Part shown: positions 18,756 through 44,998 of the stretch, in pieces
How the letters are laid out: each line of letters opens with the position of its first letter
How positions within the stretch are numbered: the first letter of the stretch is position 1
Origin: Sorangium cellulosum
GTDB lineage: Bacteria > Myxococcota_A > Polyangia > Polyangiales > Polyangiaceae
Direction: 5' to 3'
Length of the DNA stretch: 64,000 nucleotides
Assembly: GCF_004135735.1 (NCBI RefSeq)
Contig: NZ_CP012670.1
Coordinates: 3,989,501-4,053,500 of the forward strand
Notes under the pieces: generated by a model
Database searches by the model: none
What the model was told of the DNA's origin: nothing
What the model saw: the letters and a program-made list of their open reading frames with translations, nothing else
Position numbers and translations under genes: made by a program

Positions 18756-18798
18756 CCGGCGGATCCGGCGCCGCCGCCGGGGCGCGGGCGGGGGCGGT

Positions 18799-18909
18799 GG
18801 CGGGCGCCCCCGCGGGCCGTGACGAGCGCTCGGCTGGCGGGCGCCCCCGCGGGCCGTGACGAGCGCTCGGCTGGCGGGCGCCCCCGCGGGCCGTGACGAG
18901 CGCTCGGCT
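18799..18909 (+). repeat. 37-bp tandem repeat, three exact copies
   Basis: Copies at 18799-18835, 18836-18872 and 18873-18909 appear identical, plus a partial unit on the right. The array fills the spacer between the trehalose gene and the DUF389 gene. Confidence 0.92.
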
Positions 18910-18936
18910 GGCGGGCCACGTGATAAGACCCCGGCC

Positions 18937-20892
18937 ATGAACGACGAGCAGATCGACCGGCCGCTCGCCGCCGGGGTGGGGCGGCGGCACCTCCCGGCGA
19001 TCCTTCAGGATCGCGTCGCGGCCGCGTTCGGCATCGAGCCCGAGCACCGCGAGGCGATCGTGCGGGGGATGCTGGAGCGGAGCGCCCGCGGGGCGGCGGG
19101 CTACTGGCTCCAGCTCCTCCTCGCCATGGGCATCGCCTCGCTCGGGCTCGTCCTCGGCAGCGGGGCGGTGGTCATCGGCGCGATGCTGATCTCGCCGCTC
19201 ATGGGGCCCATCGTCGAGCTCGGGATGGGCCTCGCGATCGGCTCGCCCTTCCTGGCGCTGCGCTCCTTCACGCGCGTCGCCTTCAGCATCGTCGTCGTGG
19301 TCATGAGCGCCGCGCTCCTGACCCTGACGCTGCCGTTCCACGAGGTGACCGCCGAGATCGCGGCGCGCACCTCGCCGACGGCGCTCGACCTGCTCATCGC
19401 GATCTTCTGCGCGATCGCCGCGGCCTACACCACCGTCCGGCCCGGCTCGGACACGACCTCGACGGCCGCCGGGACCGCCATCGGCATCGCGCTGGTGCCG
19501 CCGCTCTGCGTGGTCGGCTACGGGATCGGCACGCGGGTGGGGAGCATCGCGGGCGGCGCCGCGCTGCTCTTCACGGCGAACCTCTGCGCGATCCTGCTGT
19601 TCGCCATCCTGTGTTTCCTGCTGCTCGGCTATGGCACCGTCAGCACCGCGGCGCTGGAGCACGCGGAGCTCGCCAAGCAGAAGCCGGGGCTCATCCGCCG
19701 CGTGGCGCGCGCCCTCGAGTTCGTCTTCGGGCTCCGCCACGGCTGGCTGGTCCGCGTGCTGATGCCGCTCGCGCTGCTCGGCGCCGTGTACTTTCCGCTC
19801 CGGGAGGCGCTCACGCGGGTCACCTGGGAGGTGCGGGTCCGCACGGCGATCCAGGGGATGCTGGACGCGCTCCCGCAGAGCACGGTGCGCTCGAGCCTGA
19901 CCGTCGATCACGGCAACGTCGCCGTTCGCCTGGTGACGCTCGGGCGGGCCGACGAGGCGGACCGGATCGAGCACGATCTGCGCGACAAGATCGCCGCGGT
20001 CGCGGGCATCGCGCCGCAGGTCGACGTGATCGCCGTCCCCGACGCGAGCGCGCTCCAGGCGGTGGCGGCGTCGGTGAAGCCGAGCGCGGCGCCGATCGAC
20101 ATGGTGCGCCGGGAGCCGGAGATCGCGCTCGTGGGGCAGGAGATCGCCGCATCGCTCGCGGCCGCGTGGCCGGAGCCGGCGGGGCCGCTCGTCGCGTGGC
20201 GGCTCCGGTTCCCGGACAACGAGCCGGTCGTCCTGGAGGCCGTGCACCTCGGCCCCGAGCTCGGCGCGGCGGCGGTCGATCTGCTCGGGCGTCAGCTATC
20301 GCGGGAGCTCGGCGCCGAGATCGCGGTGCGCGATCGCGCCATCTCCCCCGAGCCGATCGTCGCCGAGGCGGCCTCGGGGCGCGCCTGGCTGGAGAGGGCG
20401 CGGCCCGCGCTCGCCTGGGTGGAGGACGTGGAGGGGCTCCACGCCTGCATCGAGGTGCCCTCGACCGCGGAGCGCTCGGCCCGGGAGCGCTCGACCCCGG
20501 ACCGCTCGGCCCAGAAGCCCTCGACCGCGGAGCGCTCGACCCCGGAAGAGAGGCCGGACGAGGAGATCGTGGCGGTCGTGGCGGCGCTCCGGTCCCTGCC
20601 GGCGTTCCACACGGATCGGGTGCAGGTCCGCGAGGGCGCGGCGTGGCGGCTCCTGCTCTCGACCTCGCCTTGCGCGCCGGTGCCGGCGCCCGCGCCCGCG
20701 CAGGCCGGCGACCGAGCGCTCGCGGACGTGGGCGCCGCGCCGGGCGCGGGCGCCGCGCCGGGCGCGGGCACAGGCCTGAAAGCGGCCGCTGCGCCGGGCG
20801 CGGGCGCCGCGCCGGGCGCGGGCCTGAACGCGGGCGCCGCGCCGGGCGCGGGCCTGAAAGCGGGCGCTGCGCCGGGCGCGGGCGCTCCCTGA
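18937..20892 (+). CDS. DUF389 membrane protein with low-complexity tail
   Basis: 651 residues. The core at about 45-260 holds six or seven membrane helices with GSGAVVIGAMLISPLMGPI and AIAAAYTTVRPG and GTAIGIALVPPLCVVGYG, typical of DUF389 proteins (TIGR00341-like). Then comes a soluble region of about 250 residues and a tail of Ser/Thr/Arg repeats (ERSTPDRSAQKPSTAERS) and GAAPGA repeats. The function of the family is unknown. ATG 18937 begins the conserved part. The tail has no conserved features and looks like recent repeat expansion. Confidence 0.88.
   Translation: MNDEQIDRPLAAGVGRRHLPAILQDRVAAAFGIEPEHREAIVRGMLERSARGAAGYWLQLLLAMGIASLGLVLGSGAVVIGAMLISPLMGPIVELGMGLAIGSPFLALRSFTRVAFSIVVVVMSAALLTLTLPFHEVTAEIAARTSPTALDLLIAIFCAIAAAYTTVRPGSDTTSTAAGTAIGIALVPPLCVVGYGIGTRVGSIAGGAALLFTANLCAILLFAILCFLLLGYGTVSTAALEHAELAKQKPGLIRRVARALEFVFGLRHGWLVRVLMPLALLGAVYFPLREALTRVTWEVRVRTAIQGMLDALPQSTVRSSLTVDHGNVAVRLVTLGRADEADRIEHDLRDKIAAVAGIAPQVDVIAVPDASALQAVAASVKPSAAPIDMVRREPEIALVGQEIAASLAAAWPEPAGPLVAWRLRFPDNEPVVLEAVHLGPELGAAAVDLLGRQLSRELGAEIAVRDRAISPEPIVAEAASGRAWLERARPALAWVEDVEGLHACIEVPSTAERSARERSTPDRSAQKPSTAERSTPEERPDEEIVAVVAALRSLPAFHTDRVQVREGAAWRLLLSTSPCAPVPAPAPAQAGDRALADVGAAPGAGAAPGAGTGLKAAAAPGAGAAPGAGLNAGAAPGAGLKAGAAPGAGAP
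20727..20889 (+). repeat. In-frame GC repeat coding GAAPGA units
   Basis: Short direct repeats of gcgccgcgccgggcgcgg, interrupted by variants, encode about ten GAAPGAG-type units at the end of the DUF389 protein. The 18-bp unit keeps the frame. Confidence 0.75.
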
Positions 20893-31660: not shown

Positions 31661-32371
31661 TCAGGCGCACCCGTCGGGGCCGCACACGGCGCCTTCGCCC
31701 GCCTCGGCGGCGGACGTGGCGGTCGCGTCGGCCCACGCCCGCGTGAGCGCGTCGTGGAGCACCTCCGCCGGCTGCGCGCCGGACACGGCGTAGCGGCCGC
31801 CGAGCACGAAGAACGGCACGCCGCCGATGCCCAGCGACCGGGCCTCCTCCTCGTCGGCGCGCACCTCGGCGGCGTGGGCGTCGCTCGCGAGCGCCGCGGC
31901 GACCTCGTCCGGGTCGAGCCCGGCGTCCGCGGCGAGCCGCACCAGCGCCTCGGGCTCGCCGATCGGCTCCCCCTCGGTCATGTAGCCGCGCAAAAAGCGC
32001 TCCTTCACGGCGTCCTGCGCGCCGCGCACGGCCGCGAGGTGCAGCACGCGGTGGGCGTCGAACGTGTTGCCCGGCCGCACCCGATCGAAGCGGAACGTGA
32101 GCCCGTCGGCGGCGGCGACCTCCGTCATGGTGCGGATCATCTCCTCCGCGCGCGCGACGGACGTCCCGTACTTCCTCGCGAGCCGCTCGGCGTACGAGAC
32201 CCCGGGCTCGCGGACGCGCGGCGCCGCCGGATCGAGCTCGAACGCGCGCCACACGACCTCGACGGCGTCACGGTGCGGGAAGCGGGCGAGCGCTGCCTCG
32301 AGGCGGCGCTTGCCCACGTAGCACCAGGGGCAGGCGATGTCGGACCAGATGTCGATGCGGAGCGCCTTCAT
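31661..32371 (-). CDS. DsbA/FrnE family oxidoreductase
   Basis: 236 residues, no signal peptide. Thioredoxin fold with active-site CPWC in DIACPWCYVGKRRLE at the start, a helical insert, and the cis-Pro region GIGGVPFFVLGGRYAVSGAQ. Cytoplasmic FrnE-like proteins act as disulfide isomerases or oxidoreductases in stress. The C-terminal tail CGPDGC adds a Cys pair that could be metal-binding or regulatory. ATG 32371 begins the first strand. Confidence 0.92.
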   Translation of the reverse strand: MKALRIDIWSDIACPWCYVGKRRLEAALARFPHRDAVEVVWRAFELDPAAPRVREPGVSYAERLARKYGTSVARAEEMIRTMTEVAAADGLTFRFDRVRPGNTFDAHRVLHLAAVRGAQDAVKERFLRGYMTEGEPIGEPEALVRLAADAGLDPDEVAAALASDAHAAEVRADEEEARSLGIGGVPFFVLGGRYAVSGAQPAEVLHDALTRAWADATATSAAEAGEGAVCGPDGCA

Positions 32372-32528
32372 GGGGCGGAATGTACGGCGCCCCGGGACGC
32401 GACGCGAGCGCCCGCCGGGGGAGGAGGTCGCGGCTTCACCTCGGCTAGCCTGCGTTCTGCCTGCGTTCCGGCCGACGGTCCGGGGCGATCCGCGCGCCCC
32501 CCCTCGACGGCAGGCCCTGCATGGCCCC

Positions 32529-35500
32529 CTACGCCCATGCGTTCGCCAGCCGGCGGGCGCGCACGATCTCGGGCACGCACGCCGTGTACCGCGCGCGCCA
32601 GGCGGCATCGGGAATGGCCTCTGCCCGCGCTGCGATCCCGCGCATCGCCTCTCCCAGCGCCGCCCGCGCCTCGTCGACCCTGCCGCCGGTCCAATGCGCC
32701 TCCGCCAGGGCCACCCGCGCGTCGATCTCGACGTAGCCGCCGCCGCCCAGGCAGGCGAGCCCGGGCTCGATGCGGCTGGCCACGCGGGCCGCCTCCTCAT
32801 GGTCACCCAGGTGAATCAGCCCGCGGACGAGCAACGCCGTCACCCAGAGCCGCCGCAGCGGGATGCGATCGCACAGCGCGTCCGCCTCGCGCGCGCGCCG
32901 CACGGCGCCGTCGTACGAGCCACGCTGGAGGAGCACCTCTGCGCAGATCCCGTGGGCCCAGCCTCGGTAACCCACGCTCACCCCCGAAGCGTCGAGCAGC
33001 GACCGGGCTATCTCGTCGGCTTCTGCCCATTTCGATGGATCCGAACCATGCGAGAGCAGCGCCGCCAGGTGCAATGCGGATTGACGTTGCGCAAACGGGA
33101 TCGCGATGCGCTGCGCCAGCGCCACGGCTCGCCGCAGCGTGGCCTCGCCCGCCGCCGGATCGCCGAGCTCGGCCTCGGCCTGACCGAGCCTGTTCAGGGC
33201 CGTGATCTGGTCCCGGAGGTCCTCGATCGCCTGGAACGCCTCCACCGCCTGTCGCGTGAGCTGGAGCTGCCTCCAGGGATCCCGCTCGAAGGCGCGCACG
33301 TAATCGCTGCGCCCGACGGCGAGCGCCCCCCTTAGGTCGAGATCCAGGGTGGGCATTGCGGCAGCCAGCGCGTCCGCGCGGTCGAGCAAGGCCCTGCAGA
33401 GCTCGCGGCGCCCGTAGGTCTGGAGCAGCGATGCGGCGAGCGGCGCCCAGAGCATGTACTCCCGGCCCGCCTCCGCGTCCGGCTGGAACTGGACGAACCG
33501 GTCGACCGTCTCCACGAAATCGTCCTCTGCGCCGGCGACGAGTGACGCCCACGCACGATGAAAGAGCGCGATGCACGCCCACTGGCTGCCTCGCCCCATG
33601 AGCGGCAGCGCCGCGGCGCTCGCCTGCTGCCCCGCGTCGAACTCCGATCGCCAGCAGTGCGCCATGCCCTGCAACGCCAGAAGGTTACCGAGGATCTCCC
33701 CCTGCACGCCGCAGTCGATGCCTCGCTGCGCATGGGCGAGGGCGCCCCCGAAGTCGTCGCGATCGCACGACTGACGGCCCGCGCGCAGGTAATGGAACGC
33801 GGCCTGATCGAGCGCGCGCCCGCGCTGGAGGTGTTCGGCCAGCACCACGGGATCCGGCTCTCTCGCCCGCTCCAGCCATTCCCCGGCCAGCCGGTGGCCG
33901 AGCTCCCGATCCCCTTCGGTCAGCATGGCATACGCGCCCTCGCGCAGGAGCGCATGCCGGAACGCCAGCTCGTCCTCCGCCGGAAAGCGGCTCTCACGGC
34001 GGCGCACCAGGATCTCCAGCGCCACCAGCGCCTCGAGCCCGGCCGTGACCTCGCCCCGGCGCGCCTCGCCGCCGACGAGCGCCGCCACCCCTCCAGCCCA
34101 GCACACCTCGCCGAAGACGCTCGCCGCGCGCAGGAGCCGCCGGGCCTCGTCGTCCAGCGCCCCGAGGCGCGACTCCACCATGGCGACCACCGTCCCCGGC
34201 ACGTCCGGGCCTCTGCCCTCCGCGGTCCAGCGGATCAGCTCTTCCAGGTAAAACGCGTTCCCCTCCGACAGGCGCACGATCCGCGCGATCGCCTCGGCGT
34301 CCGCGCGCGCGCTCAGCACGTGCCGCGCGAGCCGCTCGCCCGCGCGCCGGCTCAGCGCGTTGAGCCGCAGCGCGTGCAGCCGCCGCCCCTCCCAGAGCCT
34401 CGGGAACAGCTCGCGCACCTCGGGCCGCGCCAGGGCGAGCACGAACAGCGGCCGATCCGAGAGGTCGCGCAGCGCCGCGTCGAGGAGCGACACCGTGGGT
34501 CGATCGCCCCAGTGCAGATCCTCCAGCACGACGACCAGCGGACCGCCGGCGACGATCGCGGCGAGGTAATCGAGGAAGGCGGCGCGCACCTGGTCCGCCA
34601 TGCGCTGCGCGTCGCGGCGCGCGGCCCGGAGCGGCAGGCTGTCCTCGTCCGGGAAGGCAGCGCCCACGATCTCGCCGAGGAACTCCTCGACGCGCCGCCG
34701 GTGGCCCGGCGACACCCGCGCCGCGATCTCTGCCGAGAGCTTCCGGCGCCGCGCCTCGATCGGCTCGCCCTCGCGAATTCCGCACGCGCTCCGCAGCGCC
34801 TGGCCCAGCATGCCGAGGGGCGAGCCGGCCCGCAGCGCGTCGCCGCGCACGACCCACACCGACACCCCCTCGTCCTGCTCCCGGAGCTCCCGCAGAAACT
34901 CCTGCGCCAGGCGCGATTTGCCCACGCCGGGCGGCGCCACCACCAGCGCCGCCTGCGCCGTGCCCTCCTCGATGCTCTCGGTCAAGAGCGCCCGCAGCAT
35001 GCCGAGCTCGCGCTCTCGCCCGACGCACGGCGTGGCCCTGCCGAGGAGCAGGCGCGTCCCCTCGGCCAGCGGGCGCTCGCCGTGCAGCGTGAAGACCCCC
35101 TCGCGCTCCCGCACGTCGAAGCGCGCGTCGAGCAAGCCCGCGGCGACCTCGTCGAGGACCACCGTGCCCTCCGGGGCGGCGTGGCGCGCCGTGGTGCTCG
35201 ACAGCCGCGCCGCCCGGTCGATCGCTGGCCCCATCGACCGCGCCGACCGCTCCCCCCTCCCCATGGCCAGCGTCACGCGCCGGCCAGCGGCGCACCGGCG
35301 CAGCGCGAGCGCGCACCGGGCAGCCTGCGCGCACAGGTCCGTCGCCGTCTCGGTGTCCGAGAGCATCACCACGACCGACCCGTCGACCAGGCGCTCGCTC
35401 CTGCCGCCGTGCGCCTCGGCCTCGCGCAGGAAGGCCTCGTCGCCCGGCGCCTGGACCAGGGTCGTGTCCCCGCCGAACGCCCCCACCTCGGCCCCCGCCG

Positions 35501-36407
35501 CGGCGCTCACCACGATCACCGCCACGGCGCGCTGCTCGCTGCTCGTGAGCGAGGGCGGAGGGACCGAGCTCACGGGCGGCCACGGCGACGCCTCCCCGAG
35601 CGCGCGCAGCGCGGCCGCCGCGGCCTGCCCGCCCGAGGGCCGCTCCTCCCGGCGCTTCGACAGCATCCTCCGCAGCAGATCGTCGAGCGCCGCGGGCACC
35701 TCGGTCCGTAGGGTGCGCAGGCGCGGGGTCTCGTCGAAAAGCACCTTGGTCAGGATCGCCGCCACGTGCTCGCCGCCGAACGCGGGCCTGCCCGCCAGGC
35801 ACTCGAAGAGCACGCACCCGAGGGAAAACACGTCCGCGCGAGCGTCGATGCTCGCCTCGCCTCGCGCCTGCTCGGGCGCCATGTAGGCTGGCGTCCCGAT
35901 CAGCACGCCCGAGCGTGTCATCCGCGTCGCGTGCCCGAGCCGCGCGATACCGAAATCGAGCACCTTCACGCCGTCGACGCGCCCGCCTGGCAAGAACAGA
36001 TTGCTCGGCTTCAGGTCGCGGTGAACGACCCCGCGCTCGTGCGCGAAGCCGAGGATGTCCGCCACCGCGGTCGCCAGCGCCACGCACTCGTCGACCTCGA
36101 GCGGACCCCGCGCGAGCCGCGCCGCGAGATCCTCGCCCTCGAGCCACTCCATGACCAGGTAGGGTGTGCCCTCGGCGCTCGCCCCGTGCGCCACGTACCG
36201 GACCACGTGGGGATGCGACATGCCCGCGAGGATCTGCGCCTCTCGCTCGAATCTCGCCGCATCCTCCGCGCTGCGCAGCGGCGAGAGCTTCACCGCCACC
36301 GCATCGGCCGTCTCCTGGTCGTGCGCCTTCCACACCTCGCCCATCCCGCCCGCGCCCGCGCGGTGCTCAAGGCGGTAGCGTCCGGCCAGGATCGCTCCTT
36401 GCTCCAC
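32529..36407 (-). CDS. Ser/Thr kinase fused to cyclase-like remnant, AAA ATPase and TPR region
   Basis: About 1292 residues from GTG 36407. Kinase at 10-270 with GAGGMGEV loop, Lys40 (AVAVK), HRDLKPSN (Asp131) and DFG (151-153). Residues 290-450 resemble a degenerate nucleotide-cyclase homology domain (AVIVVSAAAGAEVG..., GPAIDRAARLSS) lacking the metal Asp residues. An ATPase follows with Walker A APPGVGKS near 491 and LVVVLEDLHWGD as Walker B, then many helical TPR-like repeats to the end. This is the kinase-cyclase-ATPase-TPR design of myxobacterial signalling proteins. In-frame ATG 36533 would add 42 residues of non-conserved sequence. Monocistronic. Confidence 0.93.
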   Translation of the reverse strand: MEQGAILAGRYRLEHRAGAGGMGEVWKAHDQETADAVAVKLSPLRSAEDAARFEREAQILAGMSHPHVVRYVAHGASAEGTPYLVMEWLEGEDLAARLARGPLEVDECVALATAVADILGFAHERGVVHRDLKPSNLFLPGGRVDGVKVLDFGIARLGHATRMTRSGVLIGTPAYMAPEQARGEASIDARADVFSLGCVLFECLAGRPAFGGEHVAAILTKVLFDETPRLRTLRTEVPAALDDLLRRMLSKRREERPSGGQAAAAALRALGEASPWPPVSSVPPPSLTSSEQRAVAVIVVSAAAGAEVGAFGGDTTLVQAPGDEAFLREAEAHGGRSERLVDGSVVVMLSDTETATDLCAQAARCALALRRCAAGRRVTLAMGRGERSARSMGPAIDRAARLSSTTARHAAPEGTVVLDEVAAGLLDARFDVREREGVFTLHGERPLAEGTRLLLGRATPCVGRERELGMLRALLTESIEEGTAQAALVVAPPGVGKSRLAQEFLRELREQDEGVSVWVVRGDALRAGSPLGMLGQALRSACGIREGEPIEARRRKLSAEIAARVSPGHRRRVEEFLGEIVGAAFPDEDSLPLRAARRDAQRMADQVRAAFLDYLAAIVAGGPLVVVLEDLHWGDRPTVSLLDAALRDLSDRPLFVLALARPEVRELFPRLWEGRRLHALRLNALSRRAGERLARHVLSARADAEAIARIVRLSEGNAFYLEELIRWTAEGRGPDVPGTVVAMVESRLGALDDEARRLLRAASVFGEVCWAGGVAALVGGEARRGEVTAGLEALVALEILVRRRESRFPAEDELAFRHALLREGAYAMLTEGDRELGHRLAGEWLERAREPDPVVLAEHLQRGRALDQAAFHYLRAGRQSCDRDDFGGALAHAQRGIDCGVQGEILGNLLALQGMAHCWRSEFDAGQQASAAALPLMGRGSQWACIALFHRAWASLVAGAEDDFVETVDRFVQFQPDAEAGREYMLWAPLAASLLQTYGRRELCRALLDRADALAAAMPTLDLDLRGALAVGRSDYVRAFERDPWRQLQLTRQAVEAFQAIEDLRDQITALNRLGQAEAELGDPAAGEATLRRAVALAQRIAIPFAQRQSALHLAALLSHGSDPSKWAEADEIARSLLDASGVSVGYRGWAHGICAEVLLQRGSYDGAVRRAREADALCDRIPLRRLWVTALLVRGLIHLGDHEEAARVASRIEPGLACLGGGGYVEIDARVALAEAHWTGGRVDEARAALGEAMRGIAARAEAIPDAAWRARYTACVPEIVRARRLANAWA

Positions 36408-36851
36408 GATGGCAATTATCCGCCGGTACGACCAGGCATGTAAAGGGGCTCGCCCTGGCGCACCGCGCGCGGCGGCATCTCCCGGCCGCGGCTGGACGCG
36501 GGACGTTGTGGCGTGGTGGGGATTCGGGCCCATGTAGTCCCGTTCATCTGACAGGTTGCGAGAGCTGGTATCGCTCGTGTGCCCCCGACGCGGGCGTCTC
36601 TCTGTTCCGGACGAACGCCCCGGCGAGGCCGTGTGATCTCGATGCGAGGAGCTGGCGAGCTTGGCCGGATCGCTCGCGACGATTCTTGACGTCCTCGATT
36701 CGTTTCCACCGCCCGCGCCTGCCGCTGCCGAGAGACGCCTTCGGCTTCAACCCTATCGCGCCCACCCTCATCCAGGCGGCCACGACGTCGATTCATGGCG
36801 CCGCAGATGCAACACACTCAATGACCGCGGTCCTCGCCCGCTCCTCGCCGC
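36408..36851. other. Spacer upstream of the kinase gene
   Basis: Lies between the end of the aminotransferase gene and the kinase start, both reverse strand. It should hold the kinase promoter; the stretch around 36530-36600 is less GC-rich. No gene is supported. Confidence 0.45.
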
Positions 36852-38321
36852 TCACATCTCCCGGAGCCGCCACCCCAGGTACTCGGGCGCGGAGAACTGG
36901 ACGCGCCGCTGGGGGAGCGGAGCGCCGCGCTCGTCGGACGTCGCCTCGAGGCGGCGCCTGTACGCGCCCTCGTCCGCGCCGATGTCGACGAGCGCGTCCA
37001 CCAGCGCGTCCACGTCGGCCGGCGTCGAGTACAGCCCGAAGCTCGCGCGCACCATCCCGCGGCGCCGCATGACCTGCGCCTCGAGGTCCTCGTCCCCGTC
37101 CGCGTCGAGCGCCCACAGCTCGGGCAGGAGCAGGTGCCGCACGTACGGGTGCGCGCAGAAGCAGCCGTTTCGGACGGCGATGTTGTGCGCGTCGTTCAGC
37201 GCCTGCGCCGTGACCGCGTGCTCGATGCCGGAGAGGTTGAACGCCACGACGCCGCTCCGGGGCGCCGTCCGCGTCCCGTAGATCCGGAGCCCCGGCACCG
37301 TCGCCAGCCGGTCGAGCGCGTACTCGACCAGCGCGTCCTCGGCCTCGGCGATGGAGTCCATGCCGATCTCCGCCAGCACCTCGAGCGCCGACGCGAGCAG
37401 CACGGCGCCGACCACGTTGGGCGTGCCGGCCTCCTCCCGGTCGGGCAGGTGGGGCGTGAGCTCGAACCCCTCGGTCGAGACGTGCTCGACGATGCCGCCG
37501 CCGACGAGCCCAGGCGGCACGCCGTCGAGGAGCTCGCGCTTGATCACGAGGACGCCGGGCGACCCCGGGGCGTACGCCTTGTGGCCCGAGAACACGAACG
37601 CGTCGATGTCGTCGTCCGCGAGCGAGACGGCCCGGTGCGCGGCGATCTGCGCGCCGTCGACGACCACGCGCGCGCCGTGCGCGTGGGCGAGGCGGGCGAT
37701 CGGCGCAAGCGGGTTGAGCAGCCCCGTCACGTTGCTCGCCGCGGTCACGGCGACGTAACGCACCCGGCCCGCGTTCTCGCGGAGCATCGCCTCGAGCGCG
37801 TCGAGGTCGACCGGGCCGGGGCCGTCGTCGCAGGCCGTGAGCGGGACGTGCAGCACCGACGCGTGCCGCCGGTGCGGCAGGTCGTTGGCGTGGTGCTCCA
37901 TGAGCGACACCAGGGCCATCGGCCGATCGGGCTGCGCCGCCGCGAGCACCTCCGCGACGCGGTTGAGCGCCGCCGTCGCGCCGCTGCCGGTGAAGACGGC
38001 CGCGTAGTCGCGCGGCGGCGCGCCGAGGAAGCGGAGCACGCGGTCGTGCGCCCAGGCGTAGGCTTCCCCGGCGATCGCGGCGGAGAAGTGCGTCGTGCTG
38101 TGGGTGTTCGCGCAGTGCCGGAGGAACGCGCGGGCGCAGTCGAGCGTGACCTGCATGACGAGGGTGGTCGCCGCAGAGTCCAGGTAGCGCCGCCGCTTCC
38201 GCAGCCCGTCGGCCAGCGCGTACTCGGTGTCGAGCCCGACGAAGTCCTCGCGGATGCGGTCGAGCAGCGCGCGGCGGTCGGTCGTCCCGGCGCGCGGCGT
38301 GGGGCGGGTCTGTGCGCTCAT
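36852..38321 (-). CDS. Cysteine-desulfurase-like class V aminotransferase
   Basis: 489 residues. PLP fold type I with VVDGAQIAAH (PLP Asp), FVFSGHKAYAPGSPG (PLP Lys) and the loop AVRNGCFCAHPYV, whose second Cys is in the position of the persulfide Cys of SufS/CsdA. It should take sulfur from cysteine as a persulfide. The N-terminal extension and about 60 extra C-terminal residues make it longer than SufS (about 406). It starts four bases after the TusA stop and is the third gene of the ligase-TusA-desulfurase operon, so TusA is the likely acceptor. No suf or isc genes are nearby, which argues against a housekeeping Fe-S role. Confidence 0.88.
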   Translation of the reverse strand: MSAQTRPTPRAGTTDRRALLDRIREDFVGLDTEYALADGLRKRRRYLDSAATTLVMQVTLDCARAFLRHCANTHSTTHFSAAIAGEAYAWAHDRVLRFLGAPPRDYAAVFTGSGATAALNRVAEVLAAAQPDRPMALVSLMEHHANDLPHRRHASVLHVPLTACDDGPGPVDLDALEAMLRENAGRVRYVAVTAASNVTGLLNPLAPIARLAHAHGARVVVDGAQIAAHRAVSLADDDIDAFVFSGHKAYAPGSPGVLVIKRELLDGVPPGLVGGGIVEHVSTEGFELTPHLPDREEAGTPNVVGAVLLASALEVLAEIGMDSIAEAEDALVEYALDRLATVPGLRIYGTRTAPRSGVVAFNLSGIEHAVTAQALNDAHNIAVRNGCFCAHPYVRHLLLPELWALDADGDEDLEAQVMRRRGMVRASFGLYSTPADVDALVDALVDIGADEGAYRRRLEATSDERGAPLPQRRVQFSAPEYLGWRLREM

Positions 38322-38325
38322 GAGG

Positions 38326-38568
38326 CTATCCCTTCTGGATCGCGAACCGGAGCTGCTCGCCCCGATCTTCACTGCAGAGGAGCTCGTGCCCGGCGGACTC
38401 GGCGAAGACCCGGAAGTCCCGGAGCGTCGTGCGGTCCGTGGCCAGCACCTCGAGCACTTGCCCCGAGCCGAGCTGCGCGAGCGCGCGCTTGGCCTTGAGG
38501 ACCGGGATCGGGCACGCGGCGCCCCGCACGTCGAGCTGCACGTCACAGCGGAGGGTCAGGCTCTCCAT
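38326..38568 (-). CDS. TusA family sulfur carrier
   Basis: 80 residues. LDVRGAACPIPVLKAKRAL contains the family CPxP motif with the sulfur-carrying Cys; the rest has the two-layer alpha/beta pattern ending RFAIQKG. TusA relays persulfide sulfur from a desulfurase to biosynthetic enzymes. Eight bases after the ligase stop and four bases before the desulfurase start, so all three are co-transcribed. Confidence 0.92.
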   Translation of the reverse strand: MESLTLRCDVQLDVRGAACPIPVLKAKRALAQLGSGQVLEVLATDRTTLRDFRVFAESAGHELLCSEDRGEQLRFAIQKG

Positions 38569-38576
38569 GGGGGTCC

Positions 38577-39878
38577 TCACGAGGCGACGACGACGCGCGC
38601 AGCCTTGAGATCGCCCGGGCCCGACGGCTCGGGCAGGCGAGGGGAGCAGCTCACGCGGAAGTGGCGGGCCACGTCGATCTCGCGCGGGACCACCGCGCCC
38701 GCGATGGCGTCGAGCACGGCGCGCTCGGCGCGGGCCGCGCCCGGGGGCTGCTCGAGGACGAGATCGAACGGGCCGCCCGAGCGCCGCGCCGCGGTGAGCT
38801 GCCACCGGCAGGCCGCGCCGCCGAGCGCCTCCTCGATGGCCTGGTTGAGGGCCATCTCGTAGATGGGCGCGCCGTCGATGAAGACGGTGCTCTTGCTCCG
38901 GCCGAGCACGCTGAGCGTCGGTCGGCCGCCCTCCCGCGCGCGGACCCGGACGATGTCGCCGATCCGGTAGCGCACGATCGGCAGCGCCTCGCGGCGGAGA
39001 TCCGACAGCAGGATCTCGCCGACCACGTCCCCCGGCGGCAGGTCGGCGACGCGCACCGGCGCGGGCGAGTGGCTCGGATCGAGGCGCTCGCGCCGGAGCT
39101 CCTCCTCCGGCAGCAGCTCGATGAGGAGCTCCTCGAGCATCGGATCGAGCTCCCCCTGCTCGCCGGGGAGCTCGGTCGCGACGACGTCGGCCTCGACGGT
39201 GCCGTAGAGCGCCAGCACGCGGTCGACGCCCCAGAGATCGCGCACCTCGCGGCGCAGCGAGCGCGGCAGCGTATCGCCGAACAGGATCGCGCGGCGGAGC
39301 CGCGGGAACACGCGCCTCGGGTCGCCCTGCTCCTCCGCGATGGCGCGCCCGATCGCGAGCGCGACGAGCGGCGTCGCGAAGAGGGTGGTGACCTCCTCGG
39401 CCCGGCCGCTCTCGAGCGCCAGCTCGTAGTCCACGTGCGAGCCGTTGAGGACCGTCGCGCCGAGCCGCCGGCTCCCGTTGGCGATGGCCCAGGCGGAGAT
39501 GCTCGGCGGCGGCGAGCCGAGGCTCAGCACGACGTCGCGCGAGCTCAGGCCCAGCTTGCGGAACGCGGTCGCCTCGTGATCGGCCTGCTTCTCCAGGTCG
39601 CGCTCCGAGTACGGGATGCGCTTGCTCCGGCCGGTGCTGCCGCTCGTCTGGAAGAAGCACGCCGGACAGACCTCGAGCTGCGTCACGTCGCACGCGAACG
39701 CGGCTCGCTCGGTGAACTCGGAGAGAGCCGCCGGCGTGAGGAAGCGAGCGTCCTCGAAGCGCTCGACGGTGCCGTAGAGCGGGTGGTCGCGCAGCGGGAG
39801 CGCCGAGGAGGTCATCTCGGCGTACGCGCGCCGCAGCGGGGTGGGGTCGAATCGGGTCGGTTGATCGGCGAGGGTCAT
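38577..39878 (-). CDS. Adenylate-forming ligase (phenylacetate-CoA ligase-like)
   Basis: 433 residues. P-loop motif FFQTSGSTGRSKRIPYS, ALYGTVEADVVATELPGEQG (aromatic/acid core) and the hinge YRIGDIVRVR are family features of PaaK-type enzymes; the C-terminal lid is present but short. It activates a carboxylate as an acyl-adenylate; normally CoA attacks it. Because it heads an operon with TusA and a desulfurase, the acyl-adenylate could instead accept sulfur, giving a thiocarboxylate. That step is inference. ATG 39878 starts the gene; a palindrome-rich spacer separates it from a divergent flavoenzyme. Confidence 0.85.
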   Translation of the reverse strand: MTLADQPTRFDPTPLRRAYAEMTSSALPLRDHPLYGTVERFEDARFLTPAALSEFTERAAFACDVTQLEVCPACFFQTSGSTGRSKRIPYSERDLEKQADHEATAFRKLGLSSRDVVLSLGSPPPSISAWAIANGSRRLGATVLNGSHVDYELALESGRAEEVTTLFATPLVALAIGRAIAEEQGDPRRVFPRLRRAILFGDTLPRSLRREVRDLWGVDRVLALYGTVEADVVATELPGEQGELDPMLEELLIELLPEEELRRERLDPSHSPAPVRVADLPPGDVVGEILLSDLRREALPIVRYRIGDIVRVRAREGGRPTLSVLGRSKSTVFIDGAPIYEMALNQAIEEALGGAACRWQLTAARRSGGPFDLVLEQPPGAARAERAVLDAIAGAVVPREIDVARHFRVSCSPRLPEPSGPGDLKAARVVVAS

Positions 39879-40204
39879 GGCACGGCTGCCCTCGCAAGGG
39901 CGGTGCCACCTGCCAGCCCGAGGCCTCCGCGGGCGCGCCGCGCCGGATCGCGAGCGCGGCGCGCTCGCCCTGCGCAACCGCTCGCCGAGGTGGTTGCGCG
40001 ATCGAGCAACCGGTTGCTCGCCCCTGCGCCGCTCGCCGCGTGTCCGCGCGATCGAGCCATCGGTTGCTCTGCCCCTGCGCCGCTCGCCGCGTGTCCGCGC
40101 GATCGAGCAACCGGTTGCTCTGCCCCTGCGCCGCCCCGTGCGCGGCGCCCGCTGCTCCCGCCGCCTCGCCGGGGTGGAACGCCGCATGCACTTCCCCGGG
40201 CATC
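39879..40204 (+). repeat. 50/51-bp direct repeat, three copies, in the divergent spacer
   Basis: Copies begin near 40001, 40051 and 40102 and share the phrase tgcgccgctcgccgcgtgtc between palindromes. The array lies between the ligase operon and the flavoenzyme gene. No gene is supported in the spacer. Confidence 0.85.
39974..40120 (+). promoter_or_regulatory. Cluster of GCAACC/GGTTGC half-sites, possible operators
   Basis: A perfect palindrome CGAGCAACCGGTTGCTCG at 40003-40020 recurs without its outer pair at 40105-40120 and, degenerate in one arm, at 40054-40069. Extra half-sites are GCAACC at 39974 and GGTTGC at 39992. Position in a divergent spacer suggests binding of a dimeric repressor; a repeat-derived hairpin without regulatory role is the alternative. 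Confidence 0.45.
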
Positions 40205-41377
40205 ATGACGCTCAAGCTCAACCGCCTGATCGACGACCCCGTTCGCGCCGCGCGCGCCATCGCGCCGCTCGCGCGCGCTCTCCGTGACGAGACCGAGCAC
40301 CAGCGCCGGCTCCCACCTCCGGTGGTCGACGCGCTCGTCGCCGCCGGGCTCTTCCGCATGTGGGTGCCCCGGGAGCTCGGCGGCGCCGAGGCCGACCCGA
40401 GGACCTTGGTGGAGGCGGTGGAGGCGCTGTCCGCCGCCGACGGCGCCGCCGGCTGGTGCCTGATGATCGCCGCAGGCACCTCCCTCTCCAGCGGCTATCT
40501 CCCGTCCGCGGGCGCGCGCGAGATCTACGGCGACCCCGCGTCGATCGTCGGCGGGCGCCTCGTGGCGAGCGGGCGCGCGACGCGCGTCGACGGCGGCTAC
40601 CGCGTGAGCGGCCGCTGGGGGTTCAACAGCGGTATCGACCACGCGACCTGGCTCATCGGCGGCTGCGTCCTCTGGGAGGGGGATCGCGTGCTGCTGCGCC
40701 CGAACGGCGCTCCGGCGATGCGTTACATGTTCTTCCCCAAGGCGGCGTGCGACGTCATCGACACCTGGTCGGTCGGCGGGCTGCGCGGGACGGGCAGCCA
40801 CGACTTCACGGTGGAGGACGCGCTCGTGCCCGACGAGCGGTCCTTCTCCTTCGACGAGCCGTGCCTGCGCGCGCCGCTCTACCGCCTGCCGCCGTTCGCG
40901 CTGCTCGCGCCGGCCTTCTCGGCGGTCGCGCTCGGGATCGCGCGCGGCGCCATCGACGCCCTCGTCGAGCTCGCGACGCACAAGGCGCCGTGCGGCTCGG
41001 GCGCGCTGCTCCGCGATCGCGCGTCGGCGCAAGCCGCGGTGGCCCAGGCCGAGGCGCAGCTCCGGTCGGCGCGGCTGTTCCTCCTGGACGCGGTCGACGT
41101 CGCATGGGGCGACACGCTGGCCGGTCGACCGCTCACGCTCGAGCAGCGCGCCCTGCTCCGCCTCGCGGCGACGCACGCGAGCACGAGCGCCGCCCACGCG
41201 GTCGATCTCATGTACGCCGCCGGCGGCGCGAGCTCGATCTACACGACGAGCTCGCTCGAGCGCGCGTTCCGCGACGTACACACCGCGACCCAGCACGTGC
41301 TCGGGCAATCGCAGAACTACGAGGCTGCCGGGCGCGTCCTGCTCGGCCTCGAAGCGAAGATCACACCGCCGCTGTAG
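40205..41377 (+). CDS. Acyl-CoA-dehydrogenase-fold flavoprotein
   Basis: 390 residues. Helical N-domain (PPPVVDALVAAGLFRMWVPRELGG), middle beta domain with GGYRVSGRWGFNSGIDHATW and TWSVGGLRGTGSHDFTVEDALVP, and the four-helix C-domain (AVALGIARGAIDALVELA ... AAHAVDLMYAAGGASSIY). The motifs fit the group D flavin monooxygenases (HsaA/DszC/hydroxylase-like) better than true acyl-CoA dehydrogenases, because the usual catalytic Glu region is not evident. Hydroxylation or N/S-oxygenation with reduced flavin is possible. Downstream lies a SnoaL-like gene 18 bases away, probably in the same operon. Confidence 0.82.
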   Translation: MTLKLNRLIDDPVRAARAIAPLARALRDETEHQRRLPPPVVDALVAAGLFRMWVPRELGGAEADPRTLVEAVEALSAADGAAGWCLMIAAGTSLSSGYLPSAGAREIYGDPASIVGGRLVASGRATRVDGGYRVSGRWGFNSGIDHATWLIGGCVLWEGDRVLLRPNGAPAMRYMFFPKAACDVIDTWSVGGLRGTGSHDFTVEDALVPDERSFSFDEPCLRAPLYRLPPFALLAPAFSAVALGIARGAIDALVELATHKAPCGSGALLRDRASAQAAVAQAEAQLRSARLFLLDAVDVAWGDTLAGRPLTLEQRALLRLAATHASTSAAHAVDLMYAAGGASSIYTTSSLERAFRDVHTATQHVLGQSQNYEAAGRVLLGLEAKITPPL

Positions 41378-41395
41378 CGGCCGGAGGAGACGAGG

Positions 41396-41824
41396 ATGAG
41401 CATCGAGCAGAACAAGCGGATCGCCCGCGCAAACTTCGAATTCTACGACAGGGGCGACCTCGACGCGCAGATATCCCTCTACGACCCGGCGTGCCGGGTG
41501 CACCTGCCCGGGCGCCCCGGGCCCATCGGCCGAGACGGCTTTCGCGCCTTCATCGCCGGCCTGCTGGCCGCGTTCGGCGACAACACCCACGCCATCGAGG
41601 ATCAGATCGCCGAGGGGGATCGCGTGCTCACCCGCTGGCGCTGGCAGGGCGTGCATCGCGCGGAGTTCCTGGAGATGGCGCCCACGGGGCGGCTGGTCGT
41701 GCTGAGCGGCATGAACATCGATCGCATCGCGGACGGCCGTATCGTGGAGCGGTGGGGGCAGTTCGACATGCTGACGTTGCTTCGCCAGCTCGACCCGGGC
41801 TTCCGCTCGTCGCGCCCCGGGTAG
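41396..41824 (+). CDS. SnoaL-like (NTF2-fold) protein
   Basis: 142 residues. MSIEQNKRIARANFEFYDRGDLDAQISLYDPACRVHLPG and the later beta strands GDRVLTRWRWQGVHRAEFL and IVERWGQFDMLTLLRQL are the SnoaL/NTF2 cone fold. Members are polyketide cyclases, epoxide hydrolases or binding proteins. GGAGGAGACGAGG before the ATG is a strong ribosome site. Together with the flavoenzyme it gives the region the look of specialised metabolism. Confidence 0.85.
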   Translation: MSIEQNKRIARANFEFYDRGDLDAQISLYDPACRVHLPGRPGPIGRDGFRAFIAGLLAAFGDNTHAIEDQIAEGDRVLTRWRWQGVHRAEFLEMAPTGRLVVLSGMNIDRIADGRIVERWGQFDMLTLLRQLDPGFRSSRPG

Positions 41825-42094
41825 CCCGGCGCTTCCGGGTGAACGGGTGCGGCCGCTCGTGTCGCCGGCGCTGACGCCCCTACCGTCCGATGCGCGCGCG
41901 GATGGCGGCGCGCGTCCACGACGAGCAGCGCGAACGCCCCGCCGTGGAGCCGCTGGTAGCCGCCGCCGAGGTCGCCTCATGCCAGGCCGAGAATCGGCCA
42001 CGTCAGGGCCGCGCCGCCCCGGCCGGGGCCGCGGTGACGCTGCTCCTTCCAGGTGCGCGGCTACCCCAGACCCGTGCCGCGGCGCGAGCACCCG
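41825..42094. other. Spacer without a gene
   Basis: No conserved frame or repeat was seen between the SnoaL-like gene and the promoter of the ribbon-helix-helix operon. Confidence 0.5.
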
Positions 42095-42130
42095 TTGCGC
42101 GAGCGGTGCTAGATTGCTAGCATGCTATCA
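42095..42130 (+). promoter_or_regulatory. Sigma-70-type promoter overlapped by three octamer operator repeats
   Basis: TTGCGC (42095-42100), 17-base spacer, TAGCAT (42118-42123). Three direct octamers TGCTAGAT, TGCTAGCA and TGCTATCA occupy 42107-42130, covering the -10 element; the middle one is a perfect palindrome. The next gene encodes a ribbon-helix-helix protein, a class that binds such short spaced repeats, so autorepression is likely. Confidence 0.65.
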
Positions 42131-42141
42131 AAGAGGCGCCG

Positions 42142-42303
42142 ATGGCCGAGGATGTCAAGCAGTTCAACGTGTACCTGCCGACCGATCTCATTCGGGAGGT
42201 GAAGCACCACGCCGTGGAGACCGAGCAGTCGCTGTCGGCGATCGTGGCCGCCGCATTGCGCGCCTACCTCGACAAGCAACCACGGAGACGGAGCAAGGAA
42301 TGA
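42142..42303 (+). CDS. Ribbon-helix-helix (CopG-type) regulator
   Basis: 53 residues. [17 protein letters not shown] is the beta strand and first helix of an RHH domain, followed by the second helix [15 protein letters not shown] and a basic tail. It binds DNA as a dimer, contacting bases with the strand. It starts 12 bases after the octamer repeats and its stop overlaps the start of the VOC gene (ATGA at 42300-42303). RHH-VOC pairs occur in other bacteria. Confidence 0.88.
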
Positions 42304-42677
42304 CGACGACCGACGGAATTCAAGGGCTGCTCATCGAGACGCACAACTGGGGCAAGACGGTCGCGTTCTGGAGGGCGCTCGGGTACGAGCTGGAGTTCGA
42401 GACGGATCACCGCTCAGGCCGGCTGCGACATCCGAGTGGCGGGCCGTTCCTCTTCATCGCCGAGCGCCCCGAGGGCTCGCCGCTCCAGCTTCAGCCGGTG
42501 CTCGCCGTGCGCGACGCCGCGAGGTTCTCGCCCCCGGGCGCGGGCGGCGTGGTGCGCCCCTTCGAAGCACAGCACTGGAAGGTGCTCGAGATGCTCCTGG
42601 CCGACCCCGATGGCCGGCAGCTCAGCGTCCAGGCGCCGCTGCCCCGAGGCGCCAAGGAGGAGCCTCACGATGGCTGA
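42300..42677 (+). CDS. VOC (glyoxalase-fold) protein
   Basis: 125 residues. [35 protein letters not shown] is the first beta-alpha-beta-beta-beta module; the second holds [13 protein letters not shown] and [19 protein letters not shown]. Members are glyoxalases, dioxygenases and antibiotic-binding proteins. The metal ligands are only partly in place, so binding or resistance is as likely as catalysis. Both ends overlap neighbouring genes (ATGA with the regulator, eight bases with the methyltransferase), so expression is tightly coupled. Confidence 0.85.
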
Positions 42678-43527
42678 GACGTCGAGCCCCGTTCCCGACA
42701 ACACCGCCGTCCGCGTCGCGCTGTGGCGCGCGCTCCACGTGCTGGCCGATCCGGCGCCGCACGTGTTCGAGGACACGATCGGCCTCGCCCTCGCGGCGCC
42801 GGACGCCGACTGGCAGGAGCGGCGGGACATGAGCCCGTTCACGCGGCCCTTCCGCGCCTCCATCGTGGCGCGCGCGCGCTTCGTTGAAGATCTCCTCGAG
42901 GAGCGAGCTGCCCGGGGTGTCGCGCAGTACGTCATCCTCGGAGCGGGCCTCGACACCTTCGCTCAGCGGCGGCCAGGGCTCGCCTCCCGCCTGCGTGTGT
43001 TCGAGGTCGATCAGCCGGGGCCCCAGGCGTGGAAGCGCCAGCGCCTCGTCGACCTCGGCTTCGGCGTCCCGTCGTTCCTTCGTCTCGTGCCGGTCGACTT
43101 CGAGCGCGGCGACGCGTGGCTTCCGCGGCTGGCGGCGTCAGGCTTCGACGCGAAGCAGCCGGCGCTCGTGGCCTCCACCGGCGTCAGCATGTACCTCACG
43201 AAGGACGCCATCGCGGCCACGCTGCGCCAGATCGCGGCGCTCGCGCCGGGCACCACGCTGGTCATGTCGTTCATGCTGCCGATCGAGCTCGCGGACCCGG
43301 ACGTACGGCCCGGGATCGCGGCAGCGGCGAGGGGCGCACGCGCGAACGGCACGCCGTTCGTCAGCTTCTTCACGCCGGAGGAGATGCTCGCGCTGGCGCG
43401 CGAAGCCGGCTTCCGGGACGTGGCGCACGTGTCGGCGGCGGCCCTCGCCGGGCGCTACTTCGCCGGTCGGGCCGATGGCCTTCGCCCGCCGAACAACTCG
43501 GAGGAGCTGCTCGTCGCGACGACGTAG
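42670..43527 (+). CDS. SAM-dependent methyltransferase, LCMT/TIGR00027 type
   Basis: 285 residues. YVILGAGLDTFAQRRP is motif I, RVFEVDQPGPQAWKRQRL motif II, and VASTGVSMYLTKDAIAATLRQIA the later conserved block of the leucine-carboxyl-methyltransferase-like family widespread in actinobacteria and myxobacteria. A small-molecule O-methyltransferase is expected. It is the last gene of the RHH-VOC-methyltransferase operon; possibly a detoxification or tailoring unit controlled by the RHH protein. Confidence 0.9.
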   Translation: MAETSSPVPDNTAVRVALWRALHVLADPAPHVFEDTIGLALAAPDADWQERRDMSPFTRPFRASIVARARFVEDLLEERAARGVAQYVILGAGLDTFAQRRPGLASRLRVFEVDQPGPQAWKRQRLVDLGFGVPSFLRLVPVDFERGDAWLPRLAASGFDAKQPALVASTGVSMYLTKDAIAATLRQIAALAPGTTLVMSFMLPIELADPDVRPGIAAAARGARANGTPFVSFFTPEEMLALAREAGFRDVAHVSAAALAGRYFAGRADGLRPPNNSEELLVATT

Positions 43528-43538
43528 CGCGGCCGCGG

Positions 43539-44321
43539 TCAGCGCTCGTGACGCCTCTCCTCGACGTGGTGCCGCCGCCGCTCCACGCGAGGCTTCTTCG
43601 TCGGCCTGGCCGGGGTCGCCGGCCTCGCCGCCGCCCCCGCCCTGACCGTCGCGCCCGCCTTCACCGTCGCCCCCGCCCTGACCGTGGCCGCAGGCCGAGC
43701 CGGGGTCGCCGGCCGGGCCGCGGGCGCGCGGTGCACGTGGCCGCGGCGCGCGGGGGCCGGGTGCACGTGGCCGCGGCGCGCGGGGGCCGGGTGCACGTGG
43801 CCGCGGCGCGCGGGGGCCGGGTGCACGTGGCCGCGGCGCGCGGGGGCCGGGTGCACGTGGCCGCGGCGCGCGGGGGCCGGGTGCACGTGGCCGCGGCGCG
43901 CGGGGTCGCGATGCACGTGCTGGCGGTGGTGGTGAGGGGCTCGGCGCCGGTCGAAGTCGACGCGGTAGTGGACCAGCGCGCGCGGCTCGTCGCGGTAGTA
44001 GACCCAGCCGTGGCGCGTCGGATAGTACCAGCGGCCGTCCACGTAGTAGACGTAGGTCCCGCGGTAGTACACGCGCGGGTAGGTCTCGATGTAGGCCGGC
44101 GCCGCTGCGACGTGAACGACCGGCTCCTCGTACACCGTGACCTCCTGGTAGGTGACGGGCGCGGGCGCGGCGGCCCTGGTGTGGACTTCCGCAGCGCACC
44201 CGGTCGCGCCGAGGAGCGCGAGCGCGACGAGCGCGGCCAGCACGGCGAGCCTGCTGCGCTGCGGGGCATGCGCGGTGGCGCTGCGGGACGAGGGTTCGAG
44301 GACTGCCACGTTCATCTCCAT
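43539..44321 (-). CDS. Lipoprotein with Tyr-rich domain and His-rich repeats
   Basis: 260 residues. Signal with lipobox LLGATGC, then a domain with YYRGTYVYYVDGRWYYPTRH and GWVYYRDEPRALVHY, seen in other proteobacterial envelope lipoproteins, then DPARRGHVHPAPARRGHVH: six ten-residue units APARRGHVHP coded by a 30-bp repeat. The tail is Ala/Thr/Val then basic (KKPRVERRRHHVEERRH). The regularly spaced His pairs could bind Ni, Zn or Cu or nucleic acid; not shown. ATG 44321 is chosen; 44315 is in frame. The last bases lie 11 bp from the convergent methyltransferase stop. Confidence 0.75.
   Translation of the reverse strand: MEMNVAVLEPSSRSATAHAPQRSRLAVLAALVALALLGATGCAAEVHTRAAAPAPVTYQEVTVYEEPVVHVAAAPAYIETYPRVYYRGTYVYYVDGRWYYPTRHGWVYYRDEPRALVHYRVDFDRRRAPHHHRQHVHRDPARRGHVHPAPARRGHVHPAPARRGHVHPAPARRGHVHPAPARRGHVHPAPARRGHVHRAPAARPATPARPAATVRAGATVKAGATVRAGAAARPATPARPTKKPRVERRRHHVEERRHER
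43734..43905 (-). repeat. 30-bp tandem repeat coding the APARRGHVHP units
   Basis: Five nearly identical 30-bp units with diverged copies at both ends. Unit identity is close to total, which means recent expansion or gene conversion within the gene. Confidence 0.93.
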
Positions 44322-44578
44322 GGGGTTCACAGAAGCAACTGCGGTGCCACTCGGCGGCCCGGGCGGCCGGCGCCTGCGCCTGGCAGCGCGCCTGCTCCTG
44401 GTATAGCGCTTGCTGACACTTCGCGCATCGGCGCGACGGCGCCAGACCTGGATGAGACGTGAGCCGGGCGCGCGCCTCGCGCCTCGCGCCTCGAGGCAGC
44501 CGTGCACGGGCCCGCGCATCGCCCCGGGCGCGTCGGGCGATGGCCGCGATGCCCATCGCCTCTCGCCCGGTCATGGTG

Positions 44579-44998
44579 TCAGAAGACGTAGACGCTCTTG
44601 GGGATGAACGGCAGCGGGCTCAGGCCGCTCTCCGCGAAGACGGGGTATGGGTAGCCGATGCAGTCCTCGTTCATGAATATCGCGGCGGCGGCGCCGTTGG
44701 TGTTGTAGGCAGAGTGAGCCCTTCCTTCCCAGCCGTGCTCCGGGAGGTTGACGCACGTGCCCACCTGCGGGTTCAGCGCCCGGACGTTGAAGATCTCCCC
44801 GCCGTAGCCCTCCTCCTCGAAGAGGCAGAGGACGTTATCGAACGGGCACGGAACGGGGTCCTCCTCCTGCGCCGAGGCCACCTCGGGGAGCAGCAGGCCT
44901 GCCCCCGCGAGGAGGCCGACGCCCACCAGGGCGCGCAGGCCCAGGGAGGGGGACGGCGTGAGACGACGGAGGTTCTGAACGCGATCGAGCCAGTGCAT
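44579..44998 (-). CDS. Secreted peptidase-inhibitor I36/crystallin-like protein
   Basis: 139 residues. A twin-basic N-terminus and hydrophobic core end at a likely signal peptidase site VASAQ. The mature part has CLFEEEGYGGEIFNV, CVNLPEHGWEGRAHSAYN and AAIFMNEDCIGYP, the beta/gamma-crystallin-like pattern of the I36 inhibitor family (Streptomyces metalloprotease inhibitor). Four Cys could form two disulfides. ATG 44998 has GGAGGAGG upstream. Neighbour of the GH53 gene on the same strand, 207 bases apart. Confidence 0.8.
   Translation of the reverse strand: MHWLDRVQNLRRLTPSPSLGLRALVGVGLLAGAGLLLPEVASAQEEDPVPCPFDNVLCLFEEEGYGGEIFNVRALNPQVGTCVNLPEHGWEGRAHSAYNTNGAAAAIFMNEDCIGYPYPVFAESGLSPLPFIPKSVYVF

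Follow-up and report, generated by a model that had tools for sequence, protein, structure and literature searches.

Thiocarboxylic acid natural products are rare. In the PtmA3/PtmU4 cassette of thioplatensimycin, and likewise in the pairs QbsL/QbsK, pdt OrfJ/OrfI and YtkG/YtkF, all of them encoded in biosynthetic clusters, an acid-activating ligase and a sulfur donor yield the thiocarboxylic acid; as set out in PMC6006322, this route comprises an acyl-coenzyme A (CoA) synthetase forming the CoA ester, a two-domain type III CoA-transferase and sulfur carriers that end in Gly-Gly. Sulfur is also placed on an adenylation-activated substrate by the tRNA-modifying enzymes ThiI and MnmA, which receive it from a cysteine desulfurase and rely on a pair of catalytic cysteines (a persulfidic and a resolving one); the sulfur for E. 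coli MnmA arrives through TusA and others (PMC5372739). Here, a stretch of 64,000 nucleotides from Sorangium cellulosum (assembly GCF_004135735.1, contig NZ_CP012670.1, forward-strand positions 3,989,501 to 4,053,500; the whole stretch is referred to as the window) was analysed for three adjacent genes at window positions 36852–39878, which encode a ligase, a TusA protein and a cysteine desulfurase. They form a real, rare three-gene cassette that occurs in two phyla and whose ligase bears a distinctive motif at its ATP loop; most likely the trio is a variant form of thiocarboxylate biosynthesis, and a new one.

The trio lies on the minus strand, reading from 39878 to 36852, as three complete open reading frames: an AMP-binding ligase of the PaaK-like type (38577–39878, 433 residues), TusA (38326–38568, 80 residues) and a class-V, SufS-like cysteine desulfurase (36852–38321, 489 residues, its start taken as the first ATG after TusA). 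The ligase and TusA genes are separated by 8 bases, GGACCCCC, and those of TusA and the desulfurase by 4, CCTC. All three proteins exceed the cut-offs of their Pfam families (AMP-binding 45.4 bits, cut-off 29.9; TusA 79.7, cut-off 28.6; Aminotran_5 277, cut-off 21.5). The first-pass annotation had reported these genes and gaps together with an intact CPxP motif in TusA and a persulfide cysteine loop in the desulfurase; genes, gaps and coordinates were confirmed by the open reading frames and Pfam, and both motifs are seen. The CPxP motif is C19-P-I-P, also in alignment with the TusA proteins of other such trios, and the desulfurase loop RNGCFCAHPY (VRNGCFCAHPYV) aligns with the SufS loop VRTGHHCAMPLM in the structure alignment, as does its SGHK with the SGHK of SufS; the aligned SufS residues, in the cysteine loop and at the SGHK lysine, we take to be the catalytic ones. 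With PtmA3/PtmU4 the trio may share the aim, a ligase plus a sulfur source for making a thioacid, but it is not a member of that group: its carrier is a Pfam TusA protein ending in IQKG, not Gly-Gly, a comparison confined to this carrier since others elsewhere in the genome were not searched for. A type III CoA-transferase was not found in the flanking genes scanned with Pfam (32529–36533, 40172–41377, 41396–41824, 42310–42677 and 42673–43527), the remainder of window and genome not having been searched. The first-pass annotation had stated that known thioacid cassettes use other carriers; those of the PtmA3/PtmU4 type are Gly-Gly carriers (PMC6006322), and no recognisable description of a thioacid cassette composed of TusA, desulfurase and ligase turned up in the open-licence papers searched.

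The linkage is not confined to the window. All four loci found to hold the trio ligase family also hold TusA and the desulfurase; besides the window these are L104, from a metagenome-assembled genome (MAG) of Algicola sp., L115 and L171, three genomes of one gammaproteobacterial family. The order there is TusA, desulfurase, ligase (with an epimerase gene before the ligase in L104), whereas the window has ligase, TusA, desulfurase; the ligase gene adjoins TusA or the desulfurase in the window, L115 and L171. TusA and desulfurase genes are separated by 4 bases in the window, 18 in L104, 13 in L115 and 22 in L171, the last figure depending on the start codon taken. Because the three families also occur together in three genomes of another phylum, their linkage is beyond chance. 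The first-pass annotation had proposed looking for the trio in other genomes and had held that an unconserved linkage would speak against its reading; the linkage is kept in four of four ligase loci and across two phyla. The ligase itself is very restricted: at E ≤ 1e-20, with at most four candidates scored per genome, it was found in the S. cellulosum genome and in none of 376 other Myxococcota genomes (377 in all), and at E ≤ 1e-15 in one of 108 genomes of the organism's own family, its own. For the Algicola MAG, again at E ≤ 1e-20, its class (1/274) and its order (1/325) gave only the MAG itself, and its family 2/118 and 3/340; the genome samples of these searches overlap. Queried with just the window ligase, a genome collection yielded no relative; plasmids gave five weak records, and a scan of viral contigs with the ligase family found none.

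The ligase belongs to the ANL superfamily, in its PaaK-like branch, as judged from its AMP-binding domain and its fold, yet it is distant from every named family. Against Pfam PF00501 the ligases of the window, L115 and L171 score 45.4, 32.4 and 31.6 bits, and that of L104, at 28.6, falls just below the cut-off; the NCBIfam model for PaaK (TIGR02155) gives 49.9 bits, far from its cut-off of 646.3. The window ligase is 42.6–43.8% identical to the three other trio ligases and 17.5–22.5% identical to eight generic relatives. C71 and C74 are the sole invariant cysteines of the four trio ligases and stand in a C-P-A-C stretch that abuts the P-loop; in the window, codons 71–78 (39645–39668, minus strand) read C-P-A-C-F-F-Q-T and precede the S-G-S-T-G loop in sequence and alignments. 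Neither the complete pair nor a cysteine in the C71 column occurs in any of 11 generic PaaK-like relatives (those ligases that happened to lie in the loci fetched), a result returned by three alignments. In three alignments of 15 ligases the stretch exceeds that of the relatives by one residue, and in another by four, the size of the insertion depending on the alignment. Further, the A8 stretch, IRGVNVFP in five generic ligases, is replaced in all four trio ligases, while D308 and K425, the A7 aspartate and the A10 lysine, to which we ascribe catalytic roles, are retained. The trio enzyme shares fold and core motifs with PaaK, AjiA1, NatL2 and ClxA and differs from PaaK-like ligases in its low identity to them, its longer CPAC stretch, its changed A8 and the missed PaaK cut-off. 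The CPAC pair at the ATP loop and the changed A8 motif make a route without CoA plausible for this ligase. Two structure models were built; the first, from 3 rows, had a predicted local distance difference test score (pLDDT) of 50 and was of no use, and the second, from 7 rows, reached a mean of 63. The second model matched 4r1m in Foldseek (E 8e-22, template modelling score 0.61), and also 2y27 and 6six; it supports a PaaK-family fold, not the position of the cysteine pair.

The small TusA protein is the sole TusA match in its own genome, a single contig of 11.26 Mb. It qualifies as a TusA by Pfam score and CPxP motif, and it stays below the cut-off of the equivalog for tRNA thiolation (NCBIfam PRK00299, 48.5 bits against 78). 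At E ≤ 0.001 TusA matches occur in nine of 39 genomes, the S. cellulosum genome included, and in none of the five other genomes of the genus searched. Three other TusA loci, the best of those matched, were examined across 7 to 11 kb and show neither trio ligase nor desulfurase; in two other members of the order, the TusA genes adjoin a gene of the DsrE_2 family (L149 1826–2733, L151 4640–5415), a setting unlike that of the trio. The desulfurase is a member of the broad class-V cysteine desulfurases by its Aminotran_5 score, its SGHK lysine motif and its cysteine loop. It resembles SufS and CsdA in that the cysteine loop and the lysine motif align, and the plasmid-borne SufS-type and related enzymes listed are 34–41% identical to it; it differs in its CFCAHPY loop and a long C-terminal part, and it scores below the SufS equivalog cut-off (TIGR01979, 276.9 bits against 475.1) as well as that for CsdA. 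The genome holds 16 class-V aminotransferase matches including that of the trio, the best of the 15 others reaching 474 bits, so that a general desulfurase is likely encoded elsewhere.

These data bear on a first alternative, in which TusA and desulfurase supply sulfur for thiolating tRNA or for forming molybdenum cofactor, and the ligase is an unrelated neighbour. E. coli TusA and desulfurases do act in this way (PMC5372739), and a molybdopterin oxidoreductase gene (L115 1899–4562, Pfam 262 bits) is present about 3.5 kb from TusA in L115; it lies, however, outside the block that L115 shares with L171 and L104. The five relatives of the same genus lack TusA, and would need none, because B. subtilis makes 2-thiouridine (s2U) without it (PMC5372739). 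The same ligase is linked in another phylum, and both the TusA and the SufS equivalog cut-offs are missed. A housekeeping TusA was rejected on distribution: being the only one in its genome and absent from the five same-genus genomes, the trio TusA does not appear to be of the tRNA or molybdenum cofactor kind that the first-pass annotation had weighed against its own proposal. Given also the rarity of the ligase and the further class-V matches, the trio does not look like a housekeeping set, and this alternative is very improbable. A second one, in which the genes serve to mature a molybdenum hydroxylase that depends on selenium or sulfur, we regard as hardly probable at all. TusA-like and desulfurase genes occur in the neighbourhoods of such enzymes. 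Among the NCBIfam models DVU_1553 (NF045666) matches the ligase best, at 80.1 bits in the window and 77.3 in a second trio ligase, but the cut-off is 300; the molybdopterin oxidoreductase near the L115 cluster is of a type other than hydroxylase, and no molybdenum hydroxylase is found among the genes scanned next to the trio in any of the four loci, the rest of the window not having been scanned. A link to defence systems was likewise set aside: the desulfurase scored only 113 and 107 bits with the SspA and DndA models, and ligase and TusA matched nothing.

The chances appear about even that the trio is a dedicated thiocarboxylate-forming cassette in an accessory, probably biosynthetic locus. 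In such a scheme, the desulfurase would draw sulfur from cysteine as a persulfide, TusA would take it up on C19 of its CPxP loop, and the PaaK-like ligase would adenylate a carboxylic acid. The sulfur would land on the C71-P-A-C74 pair of the ligase, where one cysteine would bear the persulfide and attack the acyl-adenylate and the other would resolve it through a disulfide, so that sulfur would be placed on the acyl-adenylate to give the thiocarboxylate R-CO-SH; a flavin adenine dinucleotide (FAD) oxidoreductase encoded beside the ligase in L115 and L171 could reduce the disulfide. By analogy, this is the logic of ThiI and MnmA, proposed here to operate on a PaaK scaffold and to act on a carboxylic acid. 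The likeness would lie in an adenylating enzyme, two conserved cysteines (4/4 trio ligases, 0/11 generic ones) and a persulfide carrier; the difference is that ThiI and MnmA act on tRNA and are PP-loop enzymes, whose fold is other than that of the ANL ligase found here. A more far-reaching version is put forward tentatively, since we would sooner doubt it than rely on it: the trio may represent a new class of thiocarboxylate synthase, in which a lone PaaK-like adenylating enzyme with a persulfide/resolving CPAC pair at its ATP loop would be charged by its own desulfurase and TusA, and would make thioacids with no need of CoA, a CoA-transferase or a ubiquitin-like carrier; the clusters concerned are those of a myxobacterium and of marine gammaproteobacteria.

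The product of the ligase may instead be a plain acyl-CoA, or the enzyme may form an amide or ester directly, while desulfurase and TusA feed another step, for example formation of a C–S bond, and CPAC is structural or metal-binding. This is unlikely, though far from negligible. The ligase has the sequence and fold of the PaaK family and retains the A10 lysine and the A7 aspartate; PaaK-type ligase structures exist for AjiA1, NatL2 and ClxA, with a bound aryl acid adenylate in at least one of them, and the weak GH3 domain matches of the trio ligases would also fit acid conjugation. On the other side, among the genes compared, the window and the L115 cluster have nothing but the trio in common, so that no further sulfur-using gene recurs throughout, and the A8 stretch of the five generic ligases is lost from every trio ligase. 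Alternatively, TusA could be an acyl carrier: the ligase would load the acid onto its cysteine or persulfide, and a later enzyme would use the acyl-(S)-S-TusA. The gene for TusA is close to that of the adenylating enzyme in all four loci, and an acyl-perthio-TusA is a possible intermediate of the thiocarboxylate scheme as well; if sulfur were not moved, however, the desulfurase and the cysteine pair would be left unexplained, and TusA-fold proteins are sulfur carriers that are not known to carry acyl groups. We hold this alternative to be improbable.

Returning to the dedicated thiocarboxylate cassette, a number of observations weigh against it. A cysteine in the C74 column is present in three of the 11 generic ligases, so that C71 alone is peculiar to the trio; and the A8 glycine, which presumably has a role in CoA ligases, is kept in two of the four trio ligases. 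In the AlphaFold model pLDDT is below 50 throughout residues 1–89, the span of cysteine pair and P-loop, and because the model is unreliable there, the active-site placement of the pair rests on sequence adjacency. The linkage comprises four loci, three of them within a single bacterial family, and a run of 70 N breaks the desulfurase gene of L171. For the cassette, the order in which sulfur is passed on, the thiocarboxylate product, the independence of CoA and the substrate are what we infer. Beyond the trio, no gene of the gammaproteobacterial cluster matches the window at E ≤ 1e-3. The desulfurase clade gave 587 loci, and in the best 80, many of them cut by contig ends, TusA is near in two (L104 and L035, by tblastn) and the trio ligase in one. 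Finally, a single clade of trio desulfurases is neither shown nor rejected (approximately unbiased test, p 0.24, 21-row subset).

A linkage driven by the desulfurase was rejected on the same 80 loci, since presence of the desulfurase is not by itself a predictor of the trio. Two more of them have a distant PaaK-like gene a few kilobases off. The desulfurase clade is versatile, whereas each trio ligase seen is accompanied by the other two partners (four of four). The tree of 31 rows comprised the window, L115, three Myxococcota rows and 26 of the 80 loci including L104; L171 is not among the rows, and L049 and L050 were dropped for stops in the coordinates used. The three trio desulfurases fall in one supported set of seven rows with four solo ones. 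Elsewhere in the clade, a planctomycete (L035 5914–7750) has adjacent desulfurase and TusA genes, and its genome gives no match to the trio-ligase profile at E ≤ 1e-10. In L027 (6937–9003), from another Myxococcota genome, a desulfurase relative is fused to a C-terminal metallo-beta-lactamase domain (Aminotran_5 271, Lactamase_B 59 bits), possibly joining a desulfurase to a persulfide dioxygenase. In two clostridial loci (L087 5959–7913, L091 5959–7872) the gene directly after the desulfurase relative belongs to the DsrE_2 family (194 and 197 bits), a further case in which this enzyme clade is paired with a sulfur-relay gene.

In the gammaproteobacteria, the trio sits within a larger cluster. 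L115 and L171 have nine genes in common in the same order: an HxlR-like regulator (assigned by eye), a HisC-like aminotransferase and a DUF2269-SnoaL membrane protein, followed by TusA, desulfurase and ligase, the FAD oxidoreductase (Pyr_redox_3), a TauE-type permease and a cupin. L104 retains regulator, aminotransferase, DUF2269-SnoaL protein, TusA, desulfurase, ligase and cupin. From the enzyme types encoded, we infer that these clusters are biosynthetic. The larger cluster shared by three gammaproteobacteria fits the first-pass suggestion of a link to biosynthetic clusters, in so far as those enzyme types are biosynthetic. It looks as if the trio were the shared core and the remaining genes different tailoring functions. 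A protein of L115 encoded outside the cluster (17774–19642) matches the window at 2.2–3.0 and 27.6–28.3 kb.

In the window, a gene of the HsaA-like flavin monooxygenase/acyl-CoA dehydrogenase family is divergent from the ligase gene (40205–41377, plus strand, ATG at 40205, scanned as 40172–41377; HsaA 194.6 bits, cut-off 450), and it is adjoined by a gene for a SnoaL-like protein (41396–41824, plus strand; Pfam SnoaL 120.6 bits). Both are possible tailoring enzymes, if they belong to the trio locus. The window's SnoaL protein and that of L115 have no recognisable likeness, and no shared tailoring gene is therefore claimed. The divergent intergenic stretch (39879–40204) holds 2.7 copies of a 51-bp repeat (39996–40134) bearing the 16-base palindrome GAGCAACCGGTTGCTC. 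The palindrome is present between the ligase and HsaA-like genes in two perfect copies and one near copy with two mismatches; at up to three mismatches it has four matches in the window against 0.52 expected. From its form, the repeat is a possible candidate for an operator array. Further on, at 43711–43919, a 30-bp repeat occurs seven times (95% matches) and overlaps an open reading frame with repeated RGHVHPAPAR units. On the other flank, a Ser/Thr kinase-AAA protein (32529–36533) belongs to a very large paralogous family, with many matches at the DNA level in six genomes of the genus; this gene, downstream of the trio, has a 91% identical counterpart in a same-genus relative, and the alignment ends at 36589. 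When DNA of the window (32000–44600) was searched against five other genomes of the genus, no match between about 36590 and 42697 was among those listed; 40 candidates were scored per genome, and weak matches may be missing. The trio thus seems to sit in a strain-variable stretch.

The authors of the work on PtmA3/PtmU4 argue that thiocarboxylic acids have been overlooked as a pharmacophore, and according to calculations platensimycin binds its target less favourably than does thioplatensimycin (PMC6006322). If the proposed function is true, the trio would be a second, self-contained route to thioacids, with three parts that could be expressed together, and TusA would have been recruited for a specialised pathway. 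The signature E[IV]CPACF at the ATP loop of a ligase, encoded beside TusA and a desulfurase with the CFCAHPY loop, would then flag hidden sulfur-bearing products.

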